This document shows, in pieces, positions 1 through 34,486 of a stretch of 34,492 bases of DNA. Every line of letters starts with the position of its first letter. The stretch's first letter is position 1. The stretch comes from an uncultured Alphaproteobacteria bacterium (GTDB taxonomy: Bacteria > Pseudomonadota > Alphaproteobacteria > RF32 > CAG-239): contig CALXZJ010000013.1 of assembly GCA_944393235.1 (NCBI GenBank), positions 1-34,492 of the forward strand, in the 5' to 3' direction. Made by a program: the position numbers and the translations under genes. The notes beneath the pieces are model-generated. The model saw only the letters and a program-made list of their open reading frames with translations. It did no database searches and was not told where the DNA came from.

Positions 1-626
1 TGGTTGAAATGCTCGGCGTTTTAGCAATTATCGGGGTTTTATCGGTTGGGGCTATCAGTGGTTATTCTAAGGCGATGATGAAGTATAAGCTCAATAAACA
101 GACCGAGCAAATCGGCAGCATTTTGGATTATGCTACACTGCATTATGACGACTTTGACCGCTTAAACTTAGCGCACACTAACGTTACTCTATTGTTTCAA
201 AAACTTGGTGCTATTCCGGTTGAAATGATAAAGGAACAGAATTCTAATTATATTTATGACGTTTTTAACAACCAAGTCAGCATTTATCATAATTTAGAAG
301 AAAATAACAATTCAAAACCACAATATTACGGGCTTCAAGATTCAATTGGTAAAAACGCTTATGAAATCTGTCGAAATTTGTATCAAACGGCAAAGTTGCG
401 CAGCAGCACACTTTGGATAACCCAATTTGTAAAAAGCAGCGAAAGTAGTATAGATGTTGATGTATCAGGCAACCGCGTTTATGGCGATGCCTATTGTACA
501 GATAATGCCGACTATTGTTTGAAAGACTTATCTTTACAACAAATTCATGACCTTTGTTTATATTGTGATGACAGCTCCGGCAGCTGCCGATTCATATTTT
601 ATTGGAACTTCAAATCCGAAGGATAG
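1..626 (+). CDS. Type IV pilin-like protein (5' end cut by window edge)
   Basis: The gene is already open at base 1: bases 1-2 are the end of an ATG codon (MVEMLGVLAIIG...), so the true start lies outside the window. The visible 208 or so residues begin with a class III (prepilin) hydrophobic segment with a glutamate near its start, followed by SKAMMKYKLNKQ and then a soluble variable domain. The C-terminal part has a motif shared with the other two pilin-like genes here: YC, about 8 residues, CLKDLS, then I..LC..C. Such proteins are cleaved by prepilin peptidase and inserted in the inner membrane, then built into pili or pseudopili. Bases 1-56 are identical to 11371-11426. No pilus assembly genes are in view, so pilus, pseudopilus or adhesin cannot be distinguished. 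The gene ends at a TAG just before a bidirectional terminator. Confidence 0.75.
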   Translation, partial: VEMLGVLAIIGVLSVGAISGYSKAMMKYKLNKQTEQIGSILDYATLHYDDFDRLNLAHTNVTLLFQKLGAIPVEMIKEQNSNYIYDVFNNQVSIYHNLEENNNSKPQYYGLQDSIGKNAYEICRNLYQTAKLRSSTLWITQFVKSSESSIDVDVSGNRVYGDAYCTDNADYCLKDLSLQQIHDLCLYCDDSSGSCRFIFYWNFKSEG

Positions 627-10950: not shown

Positions 10951-11168
10951 CCGTCACGCCACCGACGCGCGTTAGTGCGGCGGTTAAGGCGTCCTTTGGG
11001 AGACCCCTAAACTCGGATACTAACGTATCCTCGTGGGGTGACGAGGTGTGGGGACGTTGTCGGCTCATGGGGTGACGAGGTATGTGGGACGTTATTGGTT
11101 TGTGGGGTGAAGAGGACTGGAGCATGATGATAAAGAGCCGATTATAAGTTATCCCAACCAATCTCTTT
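10951..11168 (+). repeat. Dispersed GC-rich hairpin repeat, copy A (full-length form)
   Basis: This fills most of the 317-base gap between the beta-solenoid gene and the pilin gene. It opens with a 35-base hairpin (10957-10991): CGCC, ACCG and CGCGC pair with GTGCG, CGGT and GGCG. A second hairpin is GGATAC-TAAC-GTATCC (11015-11030). Three degenerate tandem units of 34-35 bases follow, starting at 11034, 11068 and 11103 with TGGGGTGACGAGG, TGGGGTGACGAGG and TGGGGTGAAGAGG. Related copies lie at 20771, 25138 and 34321 in the same orientation. It encodes no credible protein; the minus-strand reading frame across it is open by composition. Confidence 0.85.
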
Positions 11169-11199: not shown

Positions 11200-11240
11200 G
11201 ACGAGCAAATACATTCATTTTGCAGTTTTGGGAGAATGTT

Positions 11241-11975
11241 ATGCGCGAAAATGATAGAAACGACCGCCCGACGAACACTGGAGATGCGCAGCCTTGTTTG
11301 AGCGACGTGTACAAAAATAGTACACGAGCGAGAAGAAGGCAAGCAGATGCGGTGTTATCCGGGCGGTCTATGGTTGAAATGCTCGGCGTTTTAGCAATTA
11401 TCGGGGTTTTATCGGTTGGGGCTATCTCGGGTTATTCCAAGGCAATGCTTAAATATAAACTCAACAAACACGCTGAAGCTTTTAGCACTCTTATAGCAAA
11501 CGGTGTCCGATTTCGAGAATATTTGCATAATTATAACTATGCTGAAGAAACTCATATATTAGATAAAATTTTTTACCAACTAAACCTTGTTCCAGACGGT
11601 ATGACGTATAAGGGAAGCAAGATTTACGATAATTTTAACAATGTTATAGATATATTATATGATGGTACATATTATCATTTTACAACATACTTAAAAAAAG
11701 ACGATTCTGGATCAGGAAGCAATATGACCATAGATAATGAAAATAAACAAGTTTGCATCAATATCTTAAACATTGCCCGACAGTTTGTTAATGATGTATA
11801 TTATGTCCATCAAACCGATGGCTTTGGAAACAAAACTGGCATACTTTACGGTAATAATTACTGTACTTCAAAAGTTAACTGCCTAAAAAATATGTCGATT
11901 AGCGATATTGATCAAATCTGCAATACTTGTTATTCCGAAAAAGCTTGCGTGTTATATTTCAATTTAATACCTTGA
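11241..11975 (+). CDS. Type IV pilin-like protein with long basic leader
   Basis: The protein is 244 residues from the ATG at 11241, chosen because GGGAG lies 6-7 bases upstream. An earlier in-frame codon at 11220 lacks one. The leader is about 41 residues, with a basic stretch (TRARRR), ending in G|RSMVEMLGVLAIIG. Cleavage after Gly41 would place Glu at +5, as in type IV prepilins, although +1 would be Arg instead of Phe or Met. A hydrophobic helix, then YSKAMLKYKLNKH and a variable domain follow. The C-terminal motif YC...CLKNMSI..I..IC..C is shared with the genes at 1 and 20865. Expected location is the inner membrane and then an extracytoplasmic filament. It is preceded by repeat A and the poly(A) tract, and followed by a terminator. 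No pilus machinery is nearby. Confidence 0.78.
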   Translation: MRENDRNDRPTNTGDAQPCLSDVYKNSTRARRRQADAVLSGRSMVEMLGVLAIIGVLSVGAISGYSKAMLKYKLNKHAEAFSTLIANGVRFREYLHNYNYAEETHILDKIFYQLNLVPDGMTYKGSKIYDNFNNVIDILYDGTYYHFTTYLKKDDSGSGSNMTIDNENKQVCINILNIARQFVNDVYYVHQTDGFGNKTGILYGNNYCTSKVNCLKNMSISDIDQICNTCYSEKACVLYFNLIP

Positions 11976-16261: not shown

Positions 16262-19200
16262 TTAAACTTCTTCGTTCAACATTTCAACATTCAGGCACAA
16301 AGATTTCATTTCTTTGACCAAAACGTTAAACGATTCAGGAACGCCGGTGTCAAACGTATCTTCACCGCGGACAATGGCCTCGTAAACCTTGGTGCGGCCG
16401 TTGACGTCATCGGATTTGACCGTCAACATCTCTTGCAAGGTATAAGCCGCGCCGTAAGCTTGCAGCGCCCAAACCTCCATTTCGCCGAAACGTTGACCGC
16501 CGAATTGAGCCTTACCGCCTAACGGCTGTTGGGTAACCAAGCTGTACGGACCGACGGAACGAGCGTGCATCTTTTCATCAACGATGTGGTGCAATTTAAT
16601 CATATAAATGATACCCACCGTCACTTTGCGGTCAAATTTTTCACCGGTGCGACCGTCATAGAGGTCTATCTGACCGGAAGTCGGCAGACCCGCCATTTCC
16701 AACATACGGTTAATATCGTCGCCGCTGGCACCGTCAAAAACCGGTGTCGCCATCGGGATACCGTCTTTCAAGTTGGAAATCATTTCCATCTTTTCCGGCT
16801 CGCTTAAGGTAGCAATTTCGGCTTTATATTGTTTTTCGCCGTAAATTTCTTTCAAGCGGTTGTTTAATTCATCAATCGTCTTTTCGCCGCGTTTATATTG
16901 TTCGCACATTTCGTTTAACTGGCGGCCGAGTTCTTTGGCTGCCCAACCCAAGTGCGTTTCCAAAATTTGCCCGACGTTCATACGGGACGGAACACCCAAC
17001 GGGTTTAAGACGATGTCAACCGGCGTACCGTCGGCCATATACGGCATGTCTTCCAGCGGCAAAACGCGGGAAACCGTACCTTTGTTACCATGACGACCGG
17101 CCATTTTATCACCGGTTTGCATTTTACGCTTGGTGGCGATAAAGACTTTGACCATCTTTAACACACCCGGCAGCAAATCATCGCCGCGTTGAACTTTTTC
17201 CACCTTGTCGTCAAAGTGTTTTTGCACCTTGGCAACGCGGGCATCAAAAGCGGCTGCAAATTCTTCAATCTGCGCCATGATGTTTTCATCTTTAACAACG
17301 ATTTTGCGCCATTGTGCCGACGGGACGGAATCCAACATTTCGGCCGTAATTTTTGACTTCTTGTCAAAGCCTTTCGGCGCATCAACAATCGTTTGACCAA
17401 TGAGCATTTCTTTCAAACGGGCGTCAAAACTCTTGCGGACGATAGCGATTTCATCGTCACGGTCTTTAGCCAGCTGCGAAATTTCCTGCTGTTCAATGGA
17501 AAGCGCACGTTCATCTTTTTCCACACCGCGGCGGGAGAAAACATGAACGTCTACCACCACGCCCTCAATGCCGGGTTGAACACGCAACGACGTATCGCGA
17601 ACATCGCTTGCCTTTTCACCGAAAATCGCACGCAACAATTTTTCTTCCGGCGTGACCGGTGATTCACCTTTCGGGGTGACTTTACCGACCAGAATGTCGC
17701 CGGCCTTAACTTCGGCACCGATATAAACGATACCGGCTTCATCAAGGTTGCGCAAAGCTTCTTCGCCGACGTTGGGGATGTCGCGGGTAATTTCTTCCTG
17801 ACCCAACTTGGTATCGCGCGCCATCACTTCAAATTCTTCAATGTGCAAAGATGTCAAGACATCATCGCGAGAAATGCGCTCGGAAAGTAAAATAGCGTCT
17901 TCGTAGTTCAAACCGTTCCAAGGCATGAACGCCACCAAAACGTTTTTGCCCAAAGCCAGTTCGCCCATATCGGTACACGGTCCGTCGGCAATGATATCGC
18001 CGGCTTTGATTTTGTCGCCGACTTTAACGAGCGGCACCTGATTGATGCAGGTGTTTTGGTTGGAGCGGCGGAATTTTTGCAAGCGGTAAATTTCCACACC
18101 GACGTTGTTGGCTTTATGATCATCGGAGCGGATAACGATACGATTGGCATCAACCGAATCCACCACACCGTCATATTTTGCCACCAGTGTTGCACCCGAA
18201 TCTTTAGCCACGGTTGCTTCAATGCCGGTACCCACCAACGGCGCCTCGCTTCTTAACAACGGCACGCCTTGGCGCTGCATGTTTGAACCCATCAATGCAC
18301 GGTTGGCGTCGTCGTTTTCCAAAAACGGAATAAGAGCGGTTGCAACAGAGACCAACTGTTTGGGCGAAACGTCAATCAAGTTGATTTCCGTGGGCGCGGC
18401 ATAAACAACCTCGCCGGCTTTGCGGCAGGCAATCATATCATTGGCGAAACGTCCGTCTTCGTTAACCTTGGCATTGGCCTCGGCGATGATGTATTTGCTT
18501 TCTTCATCGGCAGAAAGATAAACAACATCTTTGGTTACCACACCGTCAACCACTTTGCGATACGGACATTCAATAAAGCCGTATTTGTTAATGCGGGCAT
18601 AAGTCGCCAAAGAGTTAATCAAACCGATGTTCGGACCTTCCGGCGTTTCAATCGGGCAGATACGACCGTAATGCGTCGGATGCACGTCACGCACTTCAAA
18701 ACCGGCGCGATCACGCGACAAACCGCCGGGACCCAAAGCCGACAAGCGGCGTTTGTGGGTGATTTCCGAAAGCGGGTTGTTTTGATCCATAAATTGCGAC
18801 AGCTGCGAAGAACCGAAGAACTCGCGAATGACCGAGGCTATCGGTTTGGCATTGACCAAATCTTGCGGCTTGACGTTGTTTAAAACTTCGGCGCTCATTT
18901 TTTCACGAATGGCGCGCTCCATACGCAACAAGCCCATACGATATTGGTTTTCCATCAGCTCACCGACTGAACGAACGCGGCGGTTGCCCAAGTGGTCAAT
19001 ATCATCCACTTCACCTTTGCCATCACGCAATTCAATCATGTGTTTGATGATGCGCAAAATATCATCTTTGCGTAACGTGCGATATGTATCCGGAGCCTCT
19101 TCAAACGGAATATCCAAAGCCAAATTCATTTTCACACGGCCGACCGAAGACAGATCGTAACGCTCGTTATCAAAGAACAAAGCTTTAAACAATTGGTAAG

Positions 19201-20428
19201 AAGCATCCAACGTGGCCGGTTCGCCTGGGCGCATCACGCGGTAGATGTCCAACAATGCCTCTTCGCGGCAGTGATTTTTATCAGCTTCCAACGTGTTGCG
19301 GATGTACGGTCCGACATTAACGCCGTCAATATAAAGAATACTCAACTCATTGATTTTGGCGTCGGTAATCTTGTTTAAAACCTCTTCGTTTAATTCGGCG
19401 CCGGCATCGGCAATCACTTCACCGGTTTTGGCATCAACCGCGGCTTTGCCTAAAAACTTGCCGTACAGCTGTTCTTTGGCAACAAGGTAATATTCCAAGC
19501 CGTCTTCAGCTAATTTGGCAGCCGTGCGCGGCGTAATCTTTTTACCCTGTTCCCAAACGGTTTTACCGGTTTTGGCGTTGACCAAATCAAAATCAAACTT
19601 AACGCCTTTCATGCGTTCGGGAATAAACTTAACCTTCCAACCTTTTTTGGCAGCGACATATTCATCGGCTTCATAGAAGTAATTTAAGATTTCTTCTTTA
19701 TCCATGCCTTTGATTTCTTCAGCCGGAACTTTTTCACCGGCTTTGATACGGTCTTCGGTTTCTTTGGAATACAAAGAATACAAAACGGAAGTTACCGGCA
19801 GTTTGCGGCGGCGGTCAATACGGGCATAAATCAGGTCTTTGGCGTCAAATTCAAAATCAAGCCAAGAACCGCGGTAAGGTATCACGCGGGCGGCAAATAA
19901 ATATTTGCCGGAAGACATGGTTTTGCCTTTGTCATGGTCAAAGAACACACCCGGAGAGCGGTGCATCTGGGAGACCACCACACGTTCGGTGCCGTTGAAG
20001 ATAAAGGTGCCTTTGTCGGTCATCAACGGAATATCGCCCATATAGACATCTTGCTCTTTGATGTCATGGATTGATTTGGCACCGGTCGCCTCGTCAATAT
20101 CCCAAACAACCAAACGCAACGTCGCTTTAATCGGCGCGGCATAGGTCATATCGCGCTTGATGCATTCGTCAACGTCATATTTTGGTTCTTCAAGCTCGTA
20201 TTTAACAAATTCAAGCTCGCCGTTGCCGGAAAAATCTTTAATCGGGAAAATTGATTTGAAAACTTCTTCAAGCCCAAACTCGCAGTGTTCGCCATAGGCG
20301 TCAACGTTGTTGATAAAACTGGAATAAGAACCGGTCTGGACTTCAATCAAACTCGGCATATCAATGACAGAGTCAATCTTGCCGAAGTTCTTTCTTACAC
20401 GTTTTTTGCTCGTATAAGATTCCTTCAT
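16262..20428 (-). CDS. rpoB: DNA-directed RNA polymerase subunit beta
   Basis: This 1388-residue protein forms the catalytic core of RNA polymerase with RpoC. The rifampicin pocket ([20 protein letters not shown], then [14 protein letters not shown]) keeps the wild-type Asp, His and Ser residues equivalent to E. coli 516, 526 and 531, so no classic resistance change is present. The following [20 protein letters not shown] block is standard. The ATG at 20428 has AAAAGGAT about 10 bases upstream. It is not preceded by rplL: the upstream side holds a hairpin, a repeat element and a pilin remnant on the other strand, so rpoBC must use a promoter within the approximately 260-440 bases before it. 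Confidence 0.98.
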
Positions 20429-20590
20429 TTTGCTTATATCCTTTTCTTGGTTATGAATTCTGCGGCCATCCTATCGGCATTTTCGGAAGCTGCCCGTTTG
20501 CCAAACCCCGCCGGCAGAAGGTTAATAAAAAAACGTTTTTTTTAATCTGCCGCGCACACGTTTTTATAAGCGCATACGCAAAACACGACC

Positions 20591-20635
20591 GAATCGTCCG
20601 AACCCCTAGGCTTAAAGCCAAACTCGGACAAATTC
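20591..20635 (-). promoter_or_regulatory. Structured element in the rpoB upstream region
   Basis: The stretch 20429-20770 has no gene. It contains the rpoB ribosome site, an A/T-run hairpin candidate around 20525-20545, and this element. GTCCGA (20596-20601) pairs with TCGGAC (20624-20629), extended by GAAT/ATTC, and encloses a smaller palindrome GGCTTAAAGCC. Its sequence resembles part of the dispersed repeat (ACCCCTA...AACTCGGA). It could be an rpoB leader structure or an eroded repeat. I could not settle on an rpoB promoter. Confidence 0.35.
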
Positions 20636-20770
20636 AACCAAATAATTGAAGTAAAACTGCCCGTTTTTTACATTATTTCAGAATAAAATGCAAGCAGAAT
20701 CTGTTGATAAACTGATAAAATTTTCATGCTTTGGTGACAAGGTGTGTGTGGTTGTCGGCTCGTTCCTCTC

Positions 20771-20864
20771 TATCACGCCACCGGCGCGCGATAGTGCGGC
20801 GGTTTGGGCGTCCTTTGGGAGACCCCTAAACTCGCCGACGTTGTCGGCTCATGGGGTGACGAGG
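20771..20864 (+). repeat. Dispersed GC-rich hairpin repeat, copy B (fused to pilin remnant)
   Basis: This contains the 35-base hairpin (20776-20810), with changes from copy A in the loop and at one unpaired base while all paired bases are kept. It then shares GGCGTCCTTTGGGAGACCCC and a later block with copy A. GTTGTCGGCTC occurs both at 20751-20761 and 20840-20850, bracketing the core, so the edges may extend left to about 20730. The GGATAC hairpin of copies A and D is missing. The right edge abuts pilin coding sequence without any spacer. Confidence 0.85.
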
Positions 20865-21422
20865 ATTGGGGCAATTGCCGGTTATTCCAAGGCGATGTTC
20901 AAATATAAACTCAACAAACAGAATGAACAATTAAGTACTCTCATCAACGCCGGTTTGCGTTATGCCGGAACATGGAATTTTACCCAAGATACGATGCTTG
21001 TTCCTTATTTCATCAAACTCGGAGAAATTCCAACAGAAATGACTTCTAATTCTAATGATGTCATTTATGATGTTTTCGGTACAGCCATAAATGCTGCTTA
21101 TACTATTGCTCAAAACGGTTCTCATTATACACAATTTTTCATACGTTTAGATACGACAAAAAACAATACCTACATATCAAGCATCTGTCACAATATCATT
21201 AACACTATTAAAGAATTTCACGACCATGCTAATTTAAAATATGTGTCTACACTTGGGAGCAGTAATGATGGTGGTTTCTTTGCTTACACTTATTATGGTG
21301 ATGCTTATTGTGATGGTACTAATAAGTGTCTGAAAGATATGGATATTGAACAAATAGACAGCTTTTGCCGATATGCTTCCGGAAAAGATAATTCTCACAT
21401 CAAATTGGTATGGACAGAATAA
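20865..21422 (+). pseudogene. Pilin-like gene lacking its 5' end
   Basis: About 185 codons match the body of the other pilin-like genes: GAIAGYSKAMFKYKLNKQ, an IYDVFG block, and YYGDAYC...KCLKDMDIEQI..FC at the C-terminus. The leader, cleavage site and first two thirds of the hydrophobic helix are gone. At the point where the intact genes read GVLSVGAI, this one reads out of repeat copy B (HGVTR|IGAI). The frame stays open back to 20688 through the repeat, but that start has no ribosome site and the product would have no prepilin signal. It is probably a silent remnant or a donor cassette for recombination. A short cytosolic product from an internal ATG cannot be excluded. Confidence 0.7.
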
Positions 21423-21457
21423 ACGAAGCAAATACAATTTTATTTACCATAAAAGCA

Positions 21458-21481
21458 AGCCGCTTGTTTTCAAGCGGCTTA
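21458..21481. terminator. Terminator between pilin remnant and gyrA
   Basis: A perfect 10-bp stem AAGCCGCTTG / CAAGCGGCTT with a TTTT loop. The T-rich side (CTTTTA) is on the minus strand, so it mainly serves gyrA. Confidence 0.8.
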
Positions 21482-21508: not shown

Positions 21509-24325
21509 TTATTCATCTTCCGGCGCGGTTTCCGGTTCGTTAACCGTGTCAACCGCGGCTTCGTCCACATCGGCAGCGCTTTCGCCCAAGACCTCGGAAC
21601 CGGTTTCTTCTTCCAACTCCTCGTCATCGCCTTCATCGGCATTGAGCCAGGTAACTGAAACCACGCGTTCGTCCTCGGCGGTGCGGAACAAAATCACCCC
21701 TTGGGTTTTGCGGCCGGCAATGCGGATGTCTTCCACCGGCATACGGATGAGTTTGCCGCCGTCGGTAACCATCATAATCTGATTATCGTTTTCAATCGGG
21801 AACGAGCTGACAACTTCTTTGTTGCGCGCCGACATTTCCATGTTGGCAATGCCCTGCCCGCCGCGGCCGGTTACACGATATTCGTATGATGATGACCGTT
21901 TGCCGTAACCTGAAGAAGTGACGGTTAAAATAAACTCTTCATTTTCCTGCATCGCCTTAAACTGTTCAACATTCAAAACCGAAAGGAGACCGGTTTGTTC
22001 GGGCGAAATCGTCACATCGTCGCCGGTTTCGGTCTGCATATGTTTCAAGGCGGAAGAAACTTTTAAGTATTCATCACGCTGTTCGGAGGTGGCATCCGTA
22101 TGTTTCAACATTGACATGGAAATCACCTCGTCGCCTTCTGCCAGCTTGATACCGCGCACACCGGTGGAGTTGCGGCCGACAAACACGCGAACCTCGGTTA
22201 CGGGGAAACGTATGCACTTGCCGCTCTTGGCTGCCAACATCACATCGTTGGCTTCGGTGCAGAGCATCACATTGACCAGTTTGTCGCCCTCGTCAAGTTT
22301 CATGGCGATTTTGCCGTTGGATTGGACATTAACAAAATCCATCAGCGAGTTGCGGCGGACATTGCCTTGAGCCGTGGCAAACATGATTGACAAATCGCGG
22401 CAATCTGCTTCGTTTTCCGGCAACTTCATTATGGCGGTGATGTTCTCGCCCTCATCAAGCGGCAACAGGTTGATAAACGGCTTGCCTTTGGAGGTCGGCG
22501 ACCCCAACGGCAATTTATAAACTTTCATCTTATAAACCAAACCCTTGGAAGAGAAGAACAATACCGGCGTGTGGGTTGAGGCCACAAACAAACGGGTAAC
22601 AAAGTCTTCTTCCTTGGTCGCCATGCCGGATTTTCCCTTGCCGCCGCGTTTTTGCGCTTTATAGGCGTTGAGCGGCACGCGTTTGATATAGCCGGCTTCG
22701 GTAACGGTTACCACCATTTCTTCACGCTGGATAAGCGATTCAACATCGGTGTCATATTCAATGTCTTCAATTTTAGTCAAACGCGGGGTGGCGTATTCAT
22801 CTTTGACTTCAACCAACTCATCGCGCATGATGCCGTAAAGTTTTTCACGCGAGGCTAAAATGGAAAGATATTCTTTAATATCTTCGCCGAGGCCGGTTAA
22901 TTCTTCATGGATTTTTTCACGCTCCAAACCGGTCAAACGCTGCAGTTTCAAATCCAAAATCGCTTTAGCCTGATCTTCAGACAAACGATAAACTCCGTTT
23001 TCCACCTTGCGATCCGGTTCGTCAATCAGTTTGACCAAAGCTTCAACATCGCCGGCTGGCCACGCTCTGGCAAGCAGCGCGTCTTTAGCCTCCTGCGGGC
23101 TGGGCGCGGTGCGGATTAATTCTATTACCGGATCAAGGTTTTCAACCGCAATCGCCAAACCAACCAACACATGGGCGCGGTCGCGGGCTTTGTTTAATTT
23201 ATAAATCGTGCGGCGACGAATCACCTCTTCACGAAACTCCACAAACGCGGCAATGATTTCCTTTAAGGTCATCATCATCGGGCGACCGTGATTAATCGCC
23301 AACATATTCATGCCGAAGCTCGTTTGCAACGGTGTGTATTTATAAAGCTGATTTAACACCACATCGGCTTGAAAATCTTTTTTGATTTCAATCACCACGC
23401 GCACGCCCTGACGGTCGGACTCGTCGCGGATGTCGGAGATGCCGTCCACCCGTTTTTCTTTGACCAGTTCGGCAATGCGGGTAACAAGCGCGGCTTTGTT
23501 GACTTGATACGGAATCTCATGGACGATGATGGCTTCTTTGTCTTTGCGGATTTCTTCAATCGTGCATTTGGCGCGCATCATCACCGAGCCGCGGCCGGTC
23601 AGATAAGCTGATTTGGCGCCGCCTTGACCCAAAATCAAACCACCGGTCGGGAAATCAGGCCCCGGAACGATATTGACCAGCTCATCGGGCGTGATGTCAG
23701 GATTATCAATATAAGCGCAGCAGGCATCAATCACTTCGCCCAAGTTATGCGGCGGCATGTTGGTTGCCATGCCGACGGCGATACCATTGGAGCCGTTGAC
23801 CAGCAAATTCGGAAAACGTGCCGGCAAAACCGTCGGTTCCTGCACGCTTTCATCATAGTTGGGCATAAAGTCAACCGTGTCGTACTCAATGTCTTCAATC
23901 AGCTTGTGGGCGACCTTGGCAAGTCTGGCTTCGGTATAACGCATAGCCGCGGCGCCGTCGCCGTCCATGGAACCGAAGTTGCCCTGCCCGTCTATCAGCG
24001 GCAGACGCATGGAAAACGGCTGTGCCATGCGCACCATAGCCTCATAAACCGAGCTGTCGCCGTGCGGGTGGTATTTACCCAAAACCTCGCCGACGATACG
24101 GGCAGATTTGCGATAAGGTTTGGTGCAGTCATAGCCGTTTTCATACATCGCATAAATAATACGGCGATGCACCGGTTTTAAGCCGTCGCGGACATCCGGC
24201 AACGCACGGGAAACAATCACGCTCATGGCATAATCAAGATATGAGCGGCGCATTTCCTCGGTAATCATGGTCGGGGTAATGTTCTCGGCCGCGGTCGGCA
24301 CGCCGGCAATTTCGTTTTCTTCCAT
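21509..24325 (-). CDS. gyrA: DNA gyrase subunit A
   Basis: The protein is 938 residues from the ATG at 24325, preceded by AAGGAAA. The longer reading frame to 24364 has no ribosome site. GyrA cuts and rejoins DNA for ATP-driven negative supercoiling in an A2B2 complex. The catalytic tyrosine is Tyr130 ([11 protein letters not shown]). The quinolone region reads [15 protein letters not shown]: the positions equivalent to E. coli 83 and 87 are Ser91 and Glu95. Ser plus an acidic residue is the quinolone-susceptible type. The GyrA box QKRGGKG opens the C-terminal beta-pinwheel, followed by an acidic tail of about 45 residues. gyrB is not in view. Confidence 0.97.
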
Positions 24326-24562
24326 AGATTTTTCCTTATATTTTAATTTTTCAACTGCCGGCAATATAGCAAAAATCGCTTTCGGGCAAAAGTTTTTTTT
24401 GAGATTTATACCCAGTATAAAACATCACTTTTTTCTCTATGGGCAAAAAAAGCGCCTTAAAACGGTTTTTGCTCCTTAAAAGTTAACAATTAAAATTAAT
24501 AATCTCGCTTTTTTTGTTTGTTTTCAGGAAAAAATGTGCTAATCCCTATGATAGGAGATGAT

Positions 24563-25018
24563 ATGAGCGAAGAAAACAAAACAACTTTAGTAAACAGATT
24601 ATGGCGGTTGTGCCTGCGGTCACCGGTGAGCGTGCTGGCCATCGTGCTGTTGGCTTATTATGGGTTTTTGGCATTCGTTTTGGGAAAAGATGCATTTTTA
24701 AACAAAACGATTATGCTCGGCATCGTGTTTTTATGGGGCGTGTGGTTCTTTTTAAAAAACATTATCAAAATTCTGTTGATTGTCGCTATCATCGGTTGCG
24801 GCGCATACGGTTGGTATCGTTACGCTAATATGGACCGGATAAAGTGCGAAGAAAGCGGCCGCGAATGGAATGAAACCACCAAAACTTGCGAAGACAAGCT
24901 CACTTTTTGGCAGGAAATTCAAAACAAATGGGAAAAGTTCAAGAAATCTGCCGTTGTTGTGGAAAAAATCTCCGATAAAGAACATACCAAAGATAAAAAA
25001 GATGAAGAAAAGAAATAA
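24563..25018 (+). CDS. Small membrane protein of unknown function
   Basis: The protein is 151 residues from the ATG at 24563, which has AGGAG 8 bases upstream. The in-frame codon at 24518 has no ribosome site. Two to three transmembrane helices lie between about residues 20 and 85, followed by a short loop with KCEESGREWNETTKTCE and a very charged lysine-rich tail ending KDKKDEEKK. The C-x-x-S-G-x-x-W-N-x-x-T-x-x-C pattern suggests a small disulfide or metal loop. I recognise no family. It is divergent from gyrA, and 25019-25137 after it shows no gene and no clear terminator. Confidence 0.65.
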   Translation: MSEENKTTLVNRLWRLCLRSPVSVLAIVLLAYYGFLAFVLGKDAFLNKTIMLGIVFLWGVWFFLKNIIKILLIVAIIGCGAYGWYRYANMDRIKCEESGREWNETTKTCEDKLTFWQEIQNKWEKFKKSAVVVEKISDKEHTKDKKDEEKK

Positions 25019-25137
25019 TAGTTTTGAGAATCCTTATATTTAACTGTTTTAGCATTTTATATGTGTGGTGTTTTTTTATCATGTATTTTAAAAATGCGTA
25101 AGCATTCAAAGTAAAGCTTCTGTCGCACATCACTTTC

Positions 25138-25280
25138 CCGTCACGCCACCAGCGCGCAATGGTGCGGCGGTTAAGGCGTCTGTCGCACGTTTGAGAAGAG
25201 ATGCCTTATCCTCGGCGTTTTCAACACCTCGGAGGCATGACAGAGAAAAAAGGAAGAGATGCCTAATGGCATGACGATAG
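25138..25280 (+). repeat. Dispersed GC-rich hairpin repeat, copy C (divergent form)
   Basis: This is the only recognisable content of 25019-25451. The 35-base hairpin (25144-25178) is present with the outer CGCC/GGCG arms kept. TCTGTCGCAC occurs on both sides (25119-25128 and 25179-25188). After that the copy differs from A, B and D: AAGAGATGCCT occurs twice and GGCATGAC twice, giving small hairpins such as ATGCC-TAAT-GGCAT. No pilin gene is attached. The minus-strand open frame 25171-25437 runs into the repeat, starts at TTG without a ribosome site, and is not accepted as a gene. Confidence 0.75.
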
Positions 25281-25451
25281 ATTGTAAATTATCTGCAAAA
25301 TGCCGATAAATGTTTTTTCTATTATATTTTCCGTTATTGTATTTTCTTTTGAAACACAACACTATAAATAATGCAAAGAACACCACAAATGCAGCCACAT
25401 CAACCATTCCAAAATTGCCATTTGCCAAAGAAAACAATAAGGAGACAACAC

Positions 25452-25477
25452 AAAAAAATCCCCGACAGAGGGATTTT
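25452..25477 (-). terminator. Intrinsic terminator of the 25496 gene
   Basis: On the minus strand, stem AAAATCCC / GGGATTTT with a 7-base loop is followed by a run of seven T. It lies 19 bases after the stop of the small membrane protein gene, and perhaps ends the whole mutL operon. Confidence 0.8.
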
Positions 25478-25495
25478 ATAGGTTACTTCAGGAAA

Positions 25496-25816
25496 TTAAT
25501 TTTCAACGAAACCACCGGATGCGGAAGTTTGTGCAGAAGATGGTTCTTCTTCAAGTTTGGGTGCCGGTTCGGCAGATTTATTTTCGTCTTTATGTTCTTC
25601 AATTTTGTCTTTAGCAGCCTGATAACCGTCTTTAATGGTCTCTTTGGTTGAATCATAGCCATCGCGGATGACACGTTTAGTCCCCTGTGCCACATCGGAA
25701 GAAATTTCCCCAACCGTTGAATCGCGGTTGAACGTACCTTCATAAAAACCGACACCTAACAGATAAATCACAATGATAATCAAGGCGTATAAAAGATATT
25801 TGAGCAATGTTCCCAT
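25496..25816 (-). CDS. Small single-pass membrane protein
   Basis: This 106-residue protein has one N-terminal transmembrane helix (about residues 5-25), then an amphipathic helical stretch with repeated DGYDSTKETIKDGYQAAKDK-type heptads. The tail (about residues 75-106) is acidic, with Pro, Ser and Ala. This resembles YtxH-like or apolipoprotein-like membrane-tethered helices in general design only, and no family is assigned. AAAGGAG lies about 10 bases before the ATG. It follows mutL on the same strand after 75 bases, so read-through transcription is likely. Confidence 0.65.
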   Translation of the reverse strand: MGTLLKYLLYALIIIVIYLLGVGFYEGTFNRDSTVGEISSDVAQGTKRVIRDGYDSTKETIKDGYQAAKDKIEEHKDENKSAEPAPKLEEEPSSAQTSASGGFVEN

Positions 25817-25891
25817 GATAAAAAAACTCCTTTGTTGAAACTGTTTTCAGTGTTTCAGATAATCACAGCTCAAAAAATTTCAAGGCAAGGA

Positions 25892-27751
25892 TTAACGACG
25901 GGCAAAGAGTTTTTCAATATCGCTTAATTTTAATTCAACATAGGTCGGGCGTCCATGATTGCATTGGCCGGAATGTTCGGTTTTTTCCATATCGCGCAAC
26001 AGACGGTTCATCTCATCAATATTTAAACGCCGTCCGGCACGCACGGAGCCATGGCAGGCAATGGTCGCACAGATGTGATGCAGTTTGTCGGTTAAGGAAA
26101 ACTCCCCGCCCCATTCGGCGATTTCAGCCGCCAAATCCATCACCAAGCGGCGGATGTCGGCACCGCTTATCAATGCCGGAATCTCACGGACGATGACCGC
26201 TTGTTGGCCGAATTCTTCAACCACCAACCCCATTTGTGCCAAATTTTCGGCTTGCGAAAGAATGTTTTCTTTTTCCGAGGCACTTAAGTCCACAATTTCC
26301 GGAATCAAAAGCATCTGGGTGACTACTTTTTGACCGGACGTCAAAGAGCTTTTTAATTTTTCCATCACTATCCGCTCGTGGGCGGCATGCTGATCAATGA
26401 TGATAATGCCGTCTTCGGCTTGAGATATGATGTAAGTGTCATGAAATTGGGCTTTAGCCAAACCCAACGGGCCGATTTCATCAGTTTGGGCATCCGAAGC
26501 CGGTTCTTCGGTTTTGACCGAATAAAGGCGTTCCAATTCCGGCAATGGATTTTGCACACGGCGCGGCGCTGAAAACGGCGGTAACGGCGTATGAGCATGA
26601 ACTTTAGGTTCCGGCATTTTCATCTCAAATGCTTCTTCGGCAAAAGAAAGCTTTTGTGGTTGTACCGATGTTGTCTGCGTTTGCGACGGATTAAAAGACG
26701 GAATATTATCATGTACAAAAGCGGTTAAATCCAGAGTGTCCGCCACGGCTTTATCGCCCAAAGCCAACCCATGGCGAATGGAACCGACCAACAAACCACG
26801 AACGGCTGCGGCATCATAAAAACGAACTTCGGCTTTGGTCGGATGCACATTGACATCAACATAAGCCGGATCAACATCAATAAACAACGCGCATAACGGA
26901 TAGCGGTTTGAGGCTAAAACATCTTGATATGCACCCTTGATTGCGCCTAAAAGAAGTTTGTCGCGCACCGGACGGCTGTTGACGAACAAATATTGCGACA
27001 AGGAATTGGCTTTATTTAAAGTCGGCAGGCTGACATAACCACCGATACGAACATGTTCACGAGAAGCGTCTATTAAAATTGAATTATCGGCAAATTCTTT
27101 GCCCATTACCTCGCCAATGCGTTTTAACCTTGCCTCCAAAAGCTCCCCCGAACAGGCATTTAAGGATATGCGTCTGCGGCCTTCGCTTGTCAGATAAAAA
27201 GCTATGTACGGATTAGCCATGGCTATGCGGTTGACAATGTCAATGCATTGCGCCGCTTCAGCACTATCAGCTTTCAGAAATTTTAAACGTGCCGGCGTGG
27301 CATAAAACAAATCGCGCACTTCAATACGCGTGCCCTTTGAAAGGGCTGCCGGTGTAATTCCCGATTTGTGCCCACCGCTAATATCAAGCTTCCATGCGTT
27401 TTCAGAACTTTGTGCCCGCGTTGTTATCGACATGCGCGATACGGCAGCAATTGAAGGCAGTGCCTCACCTCTAAAACCTAAGTGTTTGATATTGAACAAA
27501 TCATCATTTGGGAGTTTAGAGGTGGCATGGCGTTCTACAGCCAAATTTAATTCTTCGGCAGACATACCTTTACCATCATCGGTAATGGAAATCAGATTTT
27601 TTCCGCCGCCGGCTAAATCAATTTCTATTCTTTCTGCCCCTGCATCTATGGCATTTTCTACCAACTCTTTAACAACCGAAGCGGGACGTTCTATGACTTC
27701 GCCGGCAGCTATTTGGTTTATCAGGTTATCCGGTAAAATGCGAATAGGCAT
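25892..27751 (-). CDS. mutL: DNA mismatch repair protein MutL (endonuclease-type)
   Basis: This 619-residue protein has an N-terminal GHKL ATPase domain with the standard motifs (ELVENAIDAGA, DDGKGM, RHATSK, GFRGEAL). A variable linker with many prolines follows (about 340-430), then the C-terminal dimerisation/nuclease domain. The latter carries DQHAAHERIVME near 455, the DQHAxxExxxxE metal-binding endonuclease motif, plus ACHGSVRAG and CNHGRPTYVEL. It should therefore nick the daughter strand itself, as in organisms lacking MutH. Start MPIRILP has GAGGT 8 bases upstream, in the 19-bp gap after pgi. mutS is not in view. Confidence 0.96.
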   Translation of the reverse strand: MPIRILPDNLINQIAAGEVIERPASVVKELVENAIDAGAERIEIDLAGGGKNLISITDDGKGMSAEELNLAVERHATSKLPNDDLFNIKHLGFRGEALPSIAAVSRMSITTRAQSSENAWKLDISGGHKSGITPAALSKGTRIEVRDLFYATPARLKFLKADSAEAAQCIDIVNRIAMANPYIAFYLTSEGRRRISLNACSGELLEARLKRIGEVMGKEFADNSILIDASREHVRIGGYVSLPTLNKANSLSQYLFVNSRPVRDKLLLGAIKGAYQDVLASNRYPLCALFIDVDPAYVDVNVHPTKAEVRFYDAAAVRGLLVGSIRHGLALGDKAVADTLDLTAFVHDNIPSFNPSQTQTTSVQPQKLSFAEEAFEMKMPEPKVHAHTPLPPFSAPRRVQNPLPELERLYSVKTEEPASDAQTDEIGPLGLAKAQFHDTYIISQAEDGIIIIDQHAAHERIVMEKLKSSLTSGQKVVTQMLLIPEIVDLSASEKENILSQAENLAQMGLVVEEFGQQAVIVREIPALISGADIRRLVMDLAAEIAEWGGEFSLTDKLHHICATIACHGSVRAGRRLNIDEMNRLLRDMEKTEHSGQCNHGRPTYVELKLSDIEKLFARR

Positions 27752-27770
27752 GCTTTTGACCTCTTAATGT

Positions 27771-29423
27771 TTACTTGCGAAACGCCTTGATTGCTTTAAT
27801 CAACGACAAGGTGGAAGAATCATGATTGACGGCAAACGCCGTTCCTTCCAATTCGGGCAGTATGTTTAACGCTAATTGTTTGCCGAGTTCAACCCCCATT
27901 TGGTCAAATGAATTGATGTTCCAAACCATCCCTTGTATAAATATTTTGTGTTCATACAAAGCAATCAACATACCAAGTGTAAAGGCATCAATTTTTTTGC
28001 AAAGCAATGTGTTCGACGGACGGTTGCCGCTGAAACTTTTGTATTTTTTTAAGGCTTCGACTTCTTCTTTGTCTTTTCCTGCTTTACGCAGTTCTTCGGC
28101 AGCTTCGGCAACGGTTTTGCCACGCATCAAGGCTTCGCTTTGCGCCAACACATTGGAAAGCAAAATTTGATGATGATTGCCGATTTCATTGTGTGATATC
28201 GCCGGTGCAATAAAATCTACCGGTACAATTTCGGTTCCTTGATGCAGTAATTGGAAAAATGAATGCTGAACATTGGTTCCGGCACCACCGAACAAAACAG
28301 GTCCGGTCGCGTATTTGACAAAGTTATTCTCTCTATCAACCGATTTGCCATTGCTTTCCATATCCAACTGCTGCAAATAAGCCGGCAAATATTGCAGATA
28401 TTGATCATAAGGAATAACGGCATAACGATGAATGTTAAAGAAATTGTTGTACCAAATGCCCAACAATGCCATGATAACAGGCATGTTTTCTGCCAATGGG
28501 GCGGTGCGGAAATGCTCGTCCATGGCATAAGCACCTTCCAAAAGCTTTTCAAAATTTTCAAAGCCAACGGCAATGCAAATAATCAAACCGATGGCAGACC
28601 ATAATGAATAGCGTCCGCCGACAAAATCCCAAAATTCAAACATGTTTTCGGGATTTATACCAAACTTAATAACCTCTTCCCGATTGGTGGAAAGTGCGAC
28701 AAAATGTTTGTCAACCGCGTGTTCGCCTAACGCATTGACCAACCATTTGCGGCAGGTTTTGGCATTGGTTAAAGTTTCAATCGTGGTAAATGTTTTGGAG
28801 GCAATGATAAACAAGGTCGTTTCCGGATCAAGTTTGTTTAACACCTCAGCGCAAGCCGTTCCGTCAATGTTGGAAATAAAATAACAATTGATGCCTTTAA
28901 TCCAATATTTGCGCAAAGCTTCGCAAACCATTACCGGCCCTAAATCTGAGCCACCGATGCCGATGTTGACGATATTGGTTAGTTTTTTGCCGGTATAACC
29001 TTTGAATTTTCCAAAGCGGACAGCATCGGAAAAGTTTTTCATTTTTAACAAAACTTCGTTGATTTGCGGCATAACATCTTTGCCGTCGCTTAACATCGCC
29101 TGCCCCGAACGATTGCGCAACGCAACGTGCAAAACCGAACGGTTTTCGGTATAATTGATTTTTTTGCCTTCAAACATGGCTTTTATTTTTGCGGGAATGC
29201 CGCGTTCTTCTGCCAAAGCCAGCAACCCTGCCATGACTTTATCATCAATTCGGTTTTTAGAATAATCCAAAATCAAATCGTCTACGCGTAATGTATATTT
29301 TGCTGCGCGCTTATTATCAGCGGCAAACAGATCGCGCATTTCAATTTTTCTGAAACGTTTATATTCGCTTTCAAGTTTTTTCCATGCTTTTGTTTTTTCT
29401 TTATTCTTATGAAGTCCGAACAT
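27771..29423 (-). CDS. pgi: Glucose-6-phosphate isomerase
   Basis: The enzyme interconverts glucose-6-phosphate and fructose-6-phosphate in glycolysis and gluconeogenesis. It is 550 residues from the ATG at 29423, which has AGGAGT upstream; the longer frame starting at 29453 overlaps the previous gene and is less likely. The size and both PGI signatures match: DFVGGRYSLWSAIG and GMVWNINSFDQMGVELGK. The catalytic Glu lies in LDMESNGK and the catalytic His in TNVQHSFFQLLHQG. Phosphate-binding GIGGSDLGP and SKTFTT are present. The start lies 4 bases after the stop of the upstream peptidase gene, which points to translational coupling. Confidence 0.96.
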   Translation of the reverse strand: MFGLHKNKEKTKAWKKLESEYKRFRKIEMRDLFAADNKRAAKYTLRVDDLILDYSKNRIDDKVMAGLLALAEERGIPAKIKAMFEGKKINYTENRSVLHVALRNRSGQAMLSDGKDVMPQINEVLLKMKNFSDAVRFGKFKGYTGKKLTNIVNIGIGGSDLGPVMVCEALRKYWIKGINCYFISNIDGTACAEVLNKLDPETTLFIIASKTFTTIETLTNAKTCRKWLVNALGEHAVDKHFVALSTNREEVIKFGINPENMFEFWDFVGGRYSLWSAIGLIICIAVGFENFEKLLEGAYAMDEHFRTAPLAENMPVIMALLGIWYNNFFNIHRYAVIPYDQYLQYLPAYLQQLDMESNGKSVDRENNFVKYATGPVLFGGAGTNVQHSFFQLLHQGTEIVPVDFIAPAISHNEIGNHHQILLSNVLAQSEALMRGKTVAEAAEELRKAGKDKEEVEALKKYKSFSGNRPSNTLLCKKIDAFTLGMLIALYEHKIFIQGMVWNINSFDQMGVELGKQLALNILPELEGTAFAVNHDSSTLSLIKAIKAFRK

Positions 29424-29427
29424 TTTA

Positions 29428-30843
29428 TTACTCCTGATTATTAATATTGCCAATCACAACTTCCATTGGCATAACAGAAAAATATTTGGCGGCGGCTTGA
29501 TTAACCTCTTCTAATGTTACCGCTTTAACATAACTGTTTCTTTTTTGCAAAAAGTCAAGCCCAAGCTCATATTTTTGCATTGCTGCCAGCATATCGGCGA
29601 GCCCGGCAATCGAATCAAAACGCAAATTATATGAGGCTAACAAATAATTACGAGCATCTTCAAGTTCTTGCTCAGTAACGCCGTTTTGTGCCATTTTTTG
29701 CCATTCGGTATTTATAATTTCTTTTATTTTGGAATAATTTTCCGGCGTTGAGGAAAATTGACCCAAAATAAGCGGCGTTTTTTCATCGGTTGACAAATAT
29801 GTGTACACACCGTAGGTCAGCCCTTCTTTTTCTCGCGCGGCAAGCGATAAACGCGATGTCAAGCCAGCGCCGCCAAAGATATGGTTGGCAATATACAAAG
29901 GATAAAAATCTTCAGCCGAGCGCGTCGTTCCGGCTGCAGCAAAGCTGCTGATGACTTGCGCTGTTTCGCGTTTGAGGTTTTTGGTATGCGGTTTAAGATT
30001 CATATTTGGCGACGGAACATCCTCTTTGGCGTTATGCTTAGGCAGGTCTGCAAAAATTTTTTCAACGGCGGCAGAGGCTTCCTTTAGGGTTATATCTCCG
30101 GCAACGGCAATTATCAGGTTATCTTTGGTTAGTGTATTTTGATGCCAATCTTTTAAATCTTTTGCATCCAGAGAAGCAATATCTTCTTTTTTGCCTAATG
30201 GATTGCGTCCAAACGGGTGTTCATCTCCAAACAACTCTTTAGCAAAAGCCAGACTTAAAATTGAAGCCGGATGTTCTTGTTGAATTTTTAAAGCTTCAAG
30301 ATTTTGTTGTTTTTCAATTTGTAAATCCCGCATGGTAAAATGCGGCGAAATTAAAGCAGAATGCAATAAGGCATAAGCTTTTTCACGATTTTTAGAAGGC
30401 GTTACCAAGCCGCCGGACAAATCTTCTCGTCCGGCTGAAAAAGCTATATGAATACCATTTAATTCCATTTCTTCTTGAAATTGCTGCCGGTTGAAATTGC
30501 CCGAACCATAAACCAGCATGTTTGCTGCTATACCGGCTCTGCCGGATTTGTTGACAGGATCATAGGCGTGGCCGCCTTGCTTGAAAATAAAGCTCATGGC
30601 AATAATTGGAATGGTATGTTCTTCAATCAACCAAAATTTAATGCCTGAAGATGTGATAATTTCGACCGGTTCTTTTTCAAAAGTTTTTTCTTTCAGGATA
30701 GATGTTTCGTTTATTTTTTTAGCATCAAAACCCGGTTTTATAAAAAAACGCCCCCCTACCCATGCGGCATAAACCATAGCCGCGACAACCATCAACTTCA
30801 AGACGGCATGAAAAAATTTGTGGCGGTGATAATGATAATGCAT
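29428..30843 (-). CDS. M16 peptidase-like protein, non-catalytic partner
   Basis: This 471-residue protein has an N-terminal transmembrane anchor (about 14-35) and two M16B-type domains. The zinc motif is lost: where the neighbour has HLLEH, this protein reads GIAAN (about 104-108). The C-terminal half has SRLSLAAREKEGLTYGVY (residues 330-347), the Arg/Tyr substrate-binding pair typical of the inactive subunit of heterodimeric M16B peptidases. It should therefore pair with the product of the gene just upstream. The cytoplasmic N-terminus is His-rich (MHYHYHRHKFFH). The start codon is one base after the upstream stop, with GGAGG inside the end of that gene. It faces the periplasm if the anchor is a signal anchor. 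Confidence 0.88.
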   Translation of the reverse strand: MHYHYHRHKFFHAVLKLMVVAAMVYAAWVGGRFFIKPGFDAKKINETSILKEKTFEKEPVEIITSSGIKFWLIEEHTIPIIAMSFIFKQGGHAYDPVNKSGRAGIAANMLVYGSGNFNRQQFQEEMELNGIHIAFSAGREDLSGGLVTPSKNREKAYALLHSALISPHFTMRDLQIEKQQNLEALKIQQEHPASILSLAFAKELFGDEHPFGRNPLGKKEDIASLDAKDLKDWHQNTLTKDNLIIAVAGDITLKEASAAVEKIFADLPKHNAKEDVPSPNMNLKPHTKNLKRETAQVISSFAAAGTTRSAEDFYPLYIANHIFGGAGLTSRLSLAAREKEGLTYGVYTYLSTDEKTPLILGQFSSTPENYSKIKEIINTEWQKMAQNGVTEQELEDARNYLLASYNLRFDSIAGLADMLAAMQKYELGLDFLQKRNSYVKAVTLEEVNQAAAKYFSVMPMEVVIGNINNQE

Positions 30844-30844
30844 T

Positions 30845-32182
30845 TTATTTATCCTCCTTTTCTGCCGGCATCAAGTATCCGGTTATTGAGGTTGATGAAG
30901 AAAGCATATCCGAAACGGCTTGTTTGATATCAGAAAGCGTTACATTTTTGATGTTTTCTTCATAATCATCAATTTCATTAATATTTATGCCTAAAGCCGC
31001 CATTTGACCAACAAGCATGGCTGCATCTTCCGGATTATCGCGTATATACACCAGTCCGGAAACCATTTTATGTTTTTCTTTTTCTAATTTATCTTCATTT
31101 AAGGAAACTATTGAATCTTTTAGAGCCTTTTGCAGTAAACGTTCTGTTTCCGCTGCAGTTTTACCGGCAGCCGGCACTGCCGAAAAAGAAAATTCACCTT
31201 TGCCGCGTGATAAGGCACTATATGACGAACCTGCCGCCGCAGCTTGTTTTTTTAAGACCAATTCACGGTTAAGAAACGAATTATCCCCTTCGCCGAAATA
31301 TTTGGAAAAAACCATTAAAGCGTAGGCTTGTTTTGAATTTTCTTGTAATGAAGCAACAATATAGCGGTTGACGACTCTCGGTGTTTTAATTTCGGGATGA
31401 AACATTTCCAGTTGATAAACCATTTTATTTTTGCTCGGTAAAAGACGCGTGTCGCTTTTTTGCTCCTTTTTGCCGGAGTTTTTAATGTCTCCAAAATATT
31501 TTTCAGCCAGTTGCTTTGCCGTCGGCACGTCAATATCACCGGATAAGATCAATACGGCATTGGCCGGTGAATAGTAGTGTTGATAGAATTTTTTGACATC
31601 TTCGGGCGTTAAATTTAATATTTCTTCTTCCGTTCCGGTAACCGGACGTTCATAGGGCGTCCCCTGCCATAAAATTTTATTCATAGCTTCGGCAAACTGA
31701 GCCATCGGGTTGTTATCTATCCGCTGTTTTCGTTCCTGAAATACAATCATCTGTTCTTTATCAAAAGCTTCCGTATCAAAATCAAGATTAACCATGCGAT
31801 CTGCCTCTAAAGCCATGGCAACTTCTAAACGGCTGATATCAACAAACTCATGATAAGCGGTAAAATCCGTTGAGGTAAAGGCGTTGCTGTCGCCGCCGTT
31901 TTGGGTGATAATATCATTAAAGCCTGAGCCCGGTACTCTTTTGGTGCCGCGGAACATTAAATGTTCCAACAAATGCGCTACGCCGCCTTTTCCTACCGGT
32001 TCATCAATACTGCCGGCTTTGTACCAAAGCATTTGTTTAACAATCGGCGCTTTGGTATTGCTGACAACGATAACCTGCAAACCGTTATCTAATGAAAATT
32101 TCTCCATTGGCAGCAATTTTGCTTTGGCAAATAACGGAAATAATAAAAACGCAAAAACAACTGCCAATACTTTCTTTTTCAT
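30845..32182 (-). CDS. M16 family zinc metallopeptidase, catalytic partner
   Basis: This 445-residue protein has a Sec signal peptide (FAKAK near residue 20) and is predicted periplasmic. It carries the inverted zinc motif HLLEH at residues 70-74 and the third ligand Glu150 after the expected spacing (FQER). FNDIITQNGGDSNAFTS is the usual conserved block following it. It probably degrades peptides or processes envelope proteins as a heterodimer with the adjacent inactive homologue, as established for paired M16B genes. A GAGGT site lies in the 15-bp gap after the small lipoprotein gene. Confidence 0.93.
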   Translation of the reverse strand: MKKKVLAVVFAFLLFPLFAKAKLLPMEKFSLDNGLQVIVVSNTKAPIVKQMLWYKAGSIDEPVGKGGVAHLLEHLMFRGTKRVPGSGFNDIITQNGGDSNAFTSTDFTAYHEFVDISRLEVAMALEADRMVNLDFDTEAFDKEQMIVFQERKQRIDNNPMAQFAEAMNKILWQGTPYERPVTGTEEEILNLTPEDVKKFYQHYYSPANAVLILSGDIDVPTAKQLAEKYFGDIKNSGKKEQKSDTRLLPSKNKMVYQLEMFHPEIKTPRVVNRYIVASLQENSKQAYALMVFSKYFGEGDNSFLNRELVLKKQAAAAGSSYSALSRGKGEFSFSAVPAAGKTAAETERLLQKALKDSIVSLNEDKLEKEKHKMVSGLVYIRDNPEDAAMLVGQMAALGININEIDDYEENIKNVTLSDIKQAVSDMLSSSTSITGYLMPAEKEDK

Positions 32183-32197
32183 CTTTTACCTCAATAT

Positions 32198-32362
32198 TTA
32201 TTCCGGCAATGTATTAAAATCCGGCGGCAAATCAAGCGGCTGACGAGCCACAACTTTTGTTTCATCAGGCATGCTGCGATTTAAGCCTAAATCTTTCTTA
32301 CTTAAACCACAGGCGCATAAAACACAAGAAAGCAGCAACATTACACTCAGCATTTTTTTCAT
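32198..32362 (-). CDS. Short lipoprotein, DUF3035/BamF-like
   Basis: This 54-residue protein has a perfect AAAGGAGGT site 6 bases before the ATG. A lipoprotein signal (LLLSCVLCACGLS, lipidation probably at Cys18) is followed by a short tail: LGLNRSMPDE, then VVARQPLDLPPDFNTLP. The R-x-PL-x-LPPDF-x-LP block and LGL...PDE resemble the DUF3035 family, alphaproteobacterial lipoproteins that include the BAM complex subunit BamF. Family members as I recall are longer, so this looks like a minimal version. It sits between lspA and the M16 pair; this gene order recurs in Alphaproteobacteria as far as I recall. Its product would itself be processed by the adjacent LspA. Confidence 0.7.
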   Translation of the reverse strand: MKKMLSVMLLLSCVLCACGLSKKDLGLNRSMPDETKVVARQPLDLPPDFNTLPE

Positions 32363-32375
32363 TTTTTGACCTCCT

Positions 32376-32843
32376 TTAGTGAGTTTTTTTAGGATTTATC
32401 AAACCATGGACTATAATTAGAAAAGCACCGACACAAATAAAGCTGTCTGCGGCATTAAAAGCCGGCCAGTGCCAATCATTATAATAAAAATCCAAAAAAT
32501 CGTAGACAGCGCCAAAACGAATACGGTCAATCACATTACCGAGCGCTCCCCCGATAATCAGTCCCAAAGCTGTTTGAACTAACGGCGATTGTTCATGCCG
32601 AAGCCACGAAAGCAAAAAAACAATTACGCTCAGAGCAAAAGCTGACAATAAGATTGTTCCCCAAACACCACCATCATCAAATAAAGAAAAACTAACACCG
32701 GTGTTCCACGCTTCAACCAAATTAAAAAACGAGGTTAGCATCAGCGGCGGCGTGACATCCGTAAAAACATTCATGACCAGCCATTTACTAAATTGATCAA
32801 CCATACATGCCAAAACGGCTATACTTATACCTAAAATCAACAC
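32376..32843 (-). CDS. lspA: Lipoprotein signal peptidase (signal peptidase II)
   Basis: This 155-residue inner-membrane aspartic protease has four transmembrane helices. Catalytic aspartates are Asp106 in GNVIDR and Asp133 in NAADS, and WNTGVSFSLF is the conserved N-x-G-x-x-F region. It removes signal peptides from prolipoproteins after lipidation. The start is uncertain: GTG at 32843 lies only 3 bases after GGAG and the next codon, TTG, 6 bases. The out-of-frame ATG nearby is not the start. ileS, the usual upstream neighbour in many proteobacteria, is absent. It is the first gene of the lspA-to-mutL operon. Confidence 0.93.
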   Translation of the reverse strand: MLILGISIAVLACMVDQFSKWLVMNVFTDVTPPLMLTSFFNLVEAWNTGVSFSLFDDGGVWGTILLSAFALSVIVFLLSWLRHEQSPLVQTALGLIIGGALGNVIDRIRFGAVYDFLDFYYNDWHWPAFNAADSFICVGAFLIIVHGLINPKKTH

Positions 32844-32870
32844 ATGCTCCGTTACTAAAAATCACACGTT

Positions 32871-32876
32871 ATTATA
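32871..32876 (-). promoter_or_regulatory. Putative -10 box of the lspA operon promoter
   Basis: A perfect TATAAT on the minus strand, about 27 bases before the lspA start. No convincing -35 hexamer is seen at the right distance. Confidence 0.4.
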
Positions 32877-33000
32877 AGAATTTTATGACTCAATAAAAGC
32901 CCCTTTATTGAAATATATACAGAAAAAATTTATAAAAAAGTTTTTAGAAAAACATTTTTTTGATTTATCAAGCACATGATATGGCCGGCAGAATGAATTG

Positions 33001-33954: not shown

Positions 33955-34022
33955 GACAAACCCTCCTCTGCTTTAACAAACATATTGATTAATGTTTACG
34001 ATATTTTTCAAGAAAGATTTTT

Positions 34023-34108: not shown

Positions 34109-34131
34109 ACTTTTTTATGAAAGACATGCAA

Positions 34132-34320: not shown

Positions 34321-34486
34321 CCCGCCACGCCACCGACGCGCGATAACGCGGCGGTTGGAAGATCCCTAAACTCGGATACTGGCGTATCCTCGTGGGATGA
34401 CGGGATGTAGGGTTGTCGGCAGTGGCATGACAGTAAAGTGCATATTGCGTCTACCGGTAGAAACTTATCCCCACCAGACTCTTTAA
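34321..34486 (+). repeat. Dispersed GC-rich hairpin repeat, copy D (at right edge)
   Basis: This is the only recognisable content of 34161-34492; the left part is A/T-rich with no credible gene. The first hairpin is kept in its inner part (34328-34355), where GTGCG of copy A is ACGCG. The second hairpin GGATAC-TGGC-GTATCC (34374-34389) has the same stem as copy A but a changed loop. Two degenerate TGGNATGAC units follow at 34393 and 34423. The last bases (AACTTATCCCCACCAGACTC, then TTTAAAA) resemble the sequence just before the poly(A) tract of copy A. Confidence 0.8.

Follow-up and report, generated by a model that had tools for sequence, protein, structure and literature searches.

How a pilin gene came to be fused, without its head, to a copy of a dispersed palindromic repeat, and whether such a copy still serves the cell, are the questions raised by a locus between rpoB and gyrA in the genome of an uncultured alphaproteobacterium. 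We analyzed this locus within a window of 34,492 nucleotides, which is contig C13 in a draft genome (G000) of 1.43 Mb and 62 contigs. Reading elsewhere in the genome covered the surroundings of pilins and repeats, and the two congeners G001 and G002 served for comparison. The evidence set out below leads us to view the fused gene as most likely a young pilin pseudogene that arose by short-homology joining, at a break in rpoB-gyrA synteny that is specific to G000.

Anatomy of the repeat-pilin junction

Direct reading of positions 20840-20890 (GGCTCATGGGGTGACGAGGATTGGGGCAATTGCCGGTTATTCC) revealed the order repeat copy B, TTGGGGC, pilin body. The preliminary description, according to which copy B passes without a gap into pilin coding sequence, was therefore correct, and the open reading frame that spans the junction (20688..21422, plus strand) is free of stops. 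Copy B, the left fusion partner (20733..20872, plus strand), is a C+G-rich palindromic repeat that matches copy A of the same window at 94% over 62 nt and a copy at G000:C3:48244-48298 at 98% over 55 nt. The junction falls inside the string TTGGGGC (20866..20872, plus strand), which is common to the repeat end and the pilin head, and its exact position is ambiguous over these 7 bases. That the same string also occurs in intact pilin genes could be verified: among the 57 heads kept elsewhere in G000, 15 end in TTGGGGC and 11 in TCGGGGC. The type IVb-like pilin body (20868..21422, plus strand) comprises 184 codons, ends with a stop codon at 21422 and contains neither an internal stop nor a frameshift, so that the remaining gene is indeed undamaged. 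What the copy lacks is the leader, the cleavage motif (GRSMVE, cut after the G) and the helix up to the residues SV. A terminator-like hairpin (21456..21481) lies between the body and the 3' end of gyrA, the right neighbor (21509..24364, minus strand). The left neighbor is rpoB (16262..20428, minus strand), which is matched in G001 and G002, and its upstream region (20429..20727) is oriented divergently from the pilin body. A search of the window for known RNA elements returned a single tRNA and nothing else.

Since an ATG at 20688, within the rpoB leader, opens a frame of 244 codons that crosses the repeat and enters the pilin body, this frame might encode a functional protein with a repeat-encoded N-terminus. 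However, the ATG belongs to a leader that is conserved to 20727 in G001 (96% identical to G001:C24:7443-7741, after which the sequences diverge) and that carries no such fusion there. Nine of eleven repeat copies are open in this same frame, and promoter-like sites in the region were not more frequent than expected by chance, with none upstream of the ATG on the plus strand. An in-frame reading is consequently nothing special and does not argue for a product. Moreover, the N-terminus has neither a prepilin motif nor a family match; compared with family models, the fused protein gave one weak match below the cut-off, to an unrelated family. The in-frame fusion that had been described thus holds as an open frame, not as a significant one; the frame is probably no gene, and we consider a functional fusion protein very improbable.

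Palindromic elements of Rickettsia offer a comparison, since there, too, a palindromic repeat is read in frame with a protein body. Those elements lie inside a gene and have gene sequence on both sides. Here, in contrast, no pilin sequence is present upstream of the repeat, where the conserved rpoB leader is found instead, and an in-frame insertion of the Rickettsia type was rejected.

Intact pilin genes and the segment missing from the fused copy

Genomes of this genus hold 50-68 dispersed type IVb-like pilin genes (53-68 in the family search), with some 60 in G000. An intact pilin at 11370 used as a query gave 67 matches in G000, and a related query gave 54 and 53 in G001 and G002. Most other sampled genomes of the family had 1-7 matches, with G018 (95), G028 (35) and G005 (18), single representatives of other genera, as exceptions. 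Literature searches yielded no relevant account of a pilin expansion in this lineage. The heads of the G000 genes are almost invariant (GRSMVEMLGVLAIIGVLSV) and the bodies divergent; two of the 57 head-bearing genes, on C39 and C53, are short at the 3' side. Intact relatives show G(-1) and the Glu5 spacing, with Arg at position 1, and were matched by N_methyl and related family models below the cut-off only. Pilus-type ATPases and one prepilin peptidase are present in G000, and hence the intact pilins could be processed. As a separate observation, 17 G000 pilins, including the one at 11253-11370 of the window and those in L013, L032 and L034, have an open leader of more than 25 codons before GRSMVE, and these long leaders are often made of recurrent blocks such as RNDRPTNTGDAQPCLSDVYKNSTRARRRQADVPLC.

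Most of the testable intact genes share a common architecture, which from 5' to 3' comprises the repeat, CTTATCCCCACCAGACTCTTTAAAATTGC, an A-tract, GGTTTAGAAT, a ribosome site, ATGCGTGAAAAT with the ATG next to the ribosome site, the head and the variable body. Within the window it is illustrated by repeat copy A (10954..11130, plus strand), which occupies the normal position 5' of an intact pilin with leader and head (11220..11975, plus strand) that we used as comparator. Upstream sequence longer than 600 bp was available for 31 standard genes, counting the fused copy. A repeat on the same strand lies upstream of 22 of them, and 27 have a fixed promoter-like module (TTATCCCCAC), whose usual distance from the joining point is about 161 bp. 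The fused copy has its repeat at distance -5 and is devoid of the module. At C3:48244, the closest copy of copy B, the normal repeat tail and the module come after the shared sequence. Because the repeat normally stands 5' of intact pilins in the same orientation, it did not jump into the gene; rather, the piece in between is missing. Of the proposed replacement of the head by repeat, the absence of the head was confirmed and the insertion of the repeat was not.

We then considered the bases at the joining point. The repeat end GGTGACGAGGATTGGGGC was found at 8 exact sites, compared with 0 for the reversed control, and the repeat end GACGAGGATTGGGGC is intact at seven sites besides the fused copy. 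Nine intact genes have an upstream repeat that ends in GACGAGGATTGGGGC with at most one difference and can be regarded as undeleted analogues. The heads of the nearest relatives vary at the joining point (GTTGGGGC, GTCGGGGC, GTTGGCGC, GTCGGTGC), and the shared stretch was therefore probably about 5-8 bp long; had the former head been GTCGGGGC, it would have comprised only 5-6 bp. Copy B folds into hairpins better than shuffled sequences do (z -2.6), and hairpins favor slippage. Among the heads listed, none continued into a repeat tail, as the reciprocal product would. Identical bases on both sides, together with the undeleted form at comparable loci, are the marks of a deletion between short direct repeats, and they lend support to the suggestion that recombination through short homology is plausible. 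Deletion between short direct repeats without RecA has precedent (PMC5426353). Like pseudogenes with a 5' deletion of this kind, the fused copy has a junction marked by about 5-8 bp of direct repeat, a missing segment and an intact remainder. It differs from them in having a dispersed palindromic repeat as its upstream partner and in lying at a synteny break.

These data are consistent with an event that linked the terminal TTGGGGC of an upstream repeat to the TTGGGGC or GGGGC with which a pilin head ends, and that removed everything in between; in the nine analogues the equivalent loss would amount to 181-573 bp. The joining probably occurred by short-homology recombination, for example by replication slippage helped by the repeat hairpins, a step that we infer. 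Two routes are conceivable. A local deletion could have taken place in one repeat-pilin unit after a crossover at pilin modules, or illegitimate recombination could have directly joined two loci, one with the repeat next to rpoB and one with the pilin next to gyrA. The latter route is considered because the junction coincides with the synteny break specific to G000. Either way, the product has no promoter and no start codon, and both the prepilin leader and most of the N-terminal hydrophobic helix are missing; export and assembly as a pilin are consequently not expected.

Gene order around the fusion and the possibility of misassembly

The rpoB leader of G001 and G002 is followed by an intact pilin of the same direction with a different body and then by gene U (683-687 aa), and the 3' neighbor of gyrA in both genomes is gene V, not a pilin. 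G000 has gene U on C55 beside another pilin and gene V at the start of C18, adjoining a repeat. The rpoB-gyrA neighborhood is therefore peculiar to G000. The fused body shares 62% amino acid identity with a G000 pilin on C44 and 63% with a G001 pilin on C7, and its nearest G001 relative sits elsewhere, beside a tolB-like gene. From 21555 to 34188 the window is colinear with a single contig of G002. Repeat copy C of this part (25121..25245, plus strand) has no pilin, and a pilin adjoins the corresponding gene end in G001; copy D (34327..34412, plus strand) lies close to the contig end. Transfer by a plasmid or phage was also considered; the plasmid collection contained no match to the fused region and the phage collection none to the body, which rules against it.

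A neighborhood found in one draft genome only might also be a product of the assembly, and misassembly is the main rival to a young pseudogene. Since the genome holds about 60 copies of the missing module and head, an assembler or gap closer may have used a short overlap to misjoin the body to the repeat end, or two loci may have been joined chimerically; the real genome would then contain an intact pilin or different neighbors. Indeed, 26 of the 57 pilin heads are less than 450 bp away from a contig end, the window itself starts within the conserved head of a truncated pilin (1..626, plus strand), and the contig start at gene V beside a repeat fits such an error. However, contig tips at pilin 5' ends extend 45-396 bp upstream of the joining point and never 0, and near its start the body shares exact matches of at most 32 bp with other copies, both of which make an artefact less likely. 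The overlap of 7 bp is also shorter than the usual assembler k-mers. Furthermore, the headless copies on C29 and C8 (see below) are cut deep in unique sequence, showing that real losses of the head do occur. Taken together, we regard misassembly as unlikely and a genuine young pseudogene as the better account of the locus.

Gene order between the window and G001 is broken at five positions, near 2460, 8450, 11500, 21000 and 25200, and all five breaks fall at a pilin or repeat in at least one of the two genomes. This is offered as support for a broader scenario, in which the repeats and the near-identical pilin 5' modules would serve as portable recombination sites, about 60 in number, at which upstream flanks are exchanged and the genome is rearranged. 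In this view the fused gene would be a caught rearrangement breakpoint, and headless bodies would be by-products or reserve templates. We consider this scenario rather doubtful. Nevertheless, the gene-order breaks at pilins and repeats are a more interesting lead than the fused gene itself: if they are real, the pilin genes of this lineage would not only store diversity but also drive the rearrangement of its genomes.

State of the headless body and of other truncated copies

We analyzed the body with a codon model that included eight related bodies. Omega was 0.19 on the fused branch and about 0.10 (0.107) in the background, a difference that is not significant (2 delta lnL 2.6), and omega = 1 was rejected for the fused branch (2 delta lnL about 10). 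As this branch is long, with more than one substitution per codon, its omega shows only that most of the branch predates the loss, and later decay is masked. An AlphaFold model of the body had a mean pLDDT of 90.5. The best structural match of the predicted body was the type IVb pilin PilS of Salmonella Typhi (3fhu; Z 11.1, rmsd 3.4 over 138 residues), followed by TcpB, PilS (NMR) and CofB, and the 3fhu score was well above those of unrelated structures; Foldseek alone returned nothing at E <= 0.001. The body is thus predicted to keep the fold of a type IVb pilin. With Salmonella Typhi PilS, TcpB and CofB it has this predicted fold in common and, through its intact relatives, the G(-1)/Glu5 spacing. 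Unlike these proteins, it is headless and therefore without the leader, cleavage site and N-terminal hydrophobic helix that define a type IVb pilin, no family model matches it above the cut-off, and its relatives carry Arg at position 1. Retention of the predicted fold and purifying selection on the branch make the loss look recent. A recent event had been proposed as one of two readings of the intact gene, and the undamaged body, the confidently predicted fold and the rejection of omega = 1 speak for it.

The other proposed reading was a silent donor cassette, in which a headless and promoterless body would persist to supply sequence to expressed pilins by gene conversion. In the pilS copies of Neisseria, the promoter, the ribosome site and the constant 5' coding region are missing (PMC6796969). 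The fused copy resembles them in all three respects, and its body is open and conserved. Unlike pilS, it is a single copy that is not part of an array, and no conversion tracts are shared: past codon 22, the longest tract common to another pilin of G000 measures 23 bp, and otherwise 15 bp, compared with up to 136 bp in the most similar pairs (G000 only). Nearly all other copies are full-length genes that possess a start and a head of their own, and no single expression locus that several silent copies would serve was identified. A division into one expressed gene and a silent store does not describe how this pilin family is organized. Positive support for a donor cassette was consequently not obtained, and we judge this role improbable.

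Decay of the other headless copies further argues against a donor role. A second repeat-pilin fusion at C29:13150 (L063, about 2560-2790) consists of a repeat and about the last 45 pilin codons. The copy at C8:12589 has kept the module and ATG and lost the head and the frame, and C20:19174 is a pilin without a head. All three relics are plainly decaying. G001 likewise has a headless copy, at C3:54750. The relics in both genomes and the 3'-short genes on C39 and C53 indicate that loss of pilin parts is recurrent. Most likely, the fused copy is an ordinary, recently disabled gene and no special genetic device; we infer that it has lost expression and has no present function. As a young pseudogene it clearly illustrates how members of a large pilin family are lost.

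Three minor observations concern variation within the pilin family. A separate subfamily (GGIAGYSKAMNKYKINK) with at least four copies in G000 (L054 at 2595, L059, L060 and L061) is without the repeat and the module. The residues that follow the head read GAM[STN]GY[AS]K in most G001 copies and GAI[AS]GYSK in most copies of G000 and G002; this homogenization within each genome suggests concerted evolution of the pilin 5' part. Finally, in a small sample of variable bodies compared between G000 and G001, bodies tended to match where the downstream and not the upstream flank is common, as expected if exchange occurs in the 5' module.
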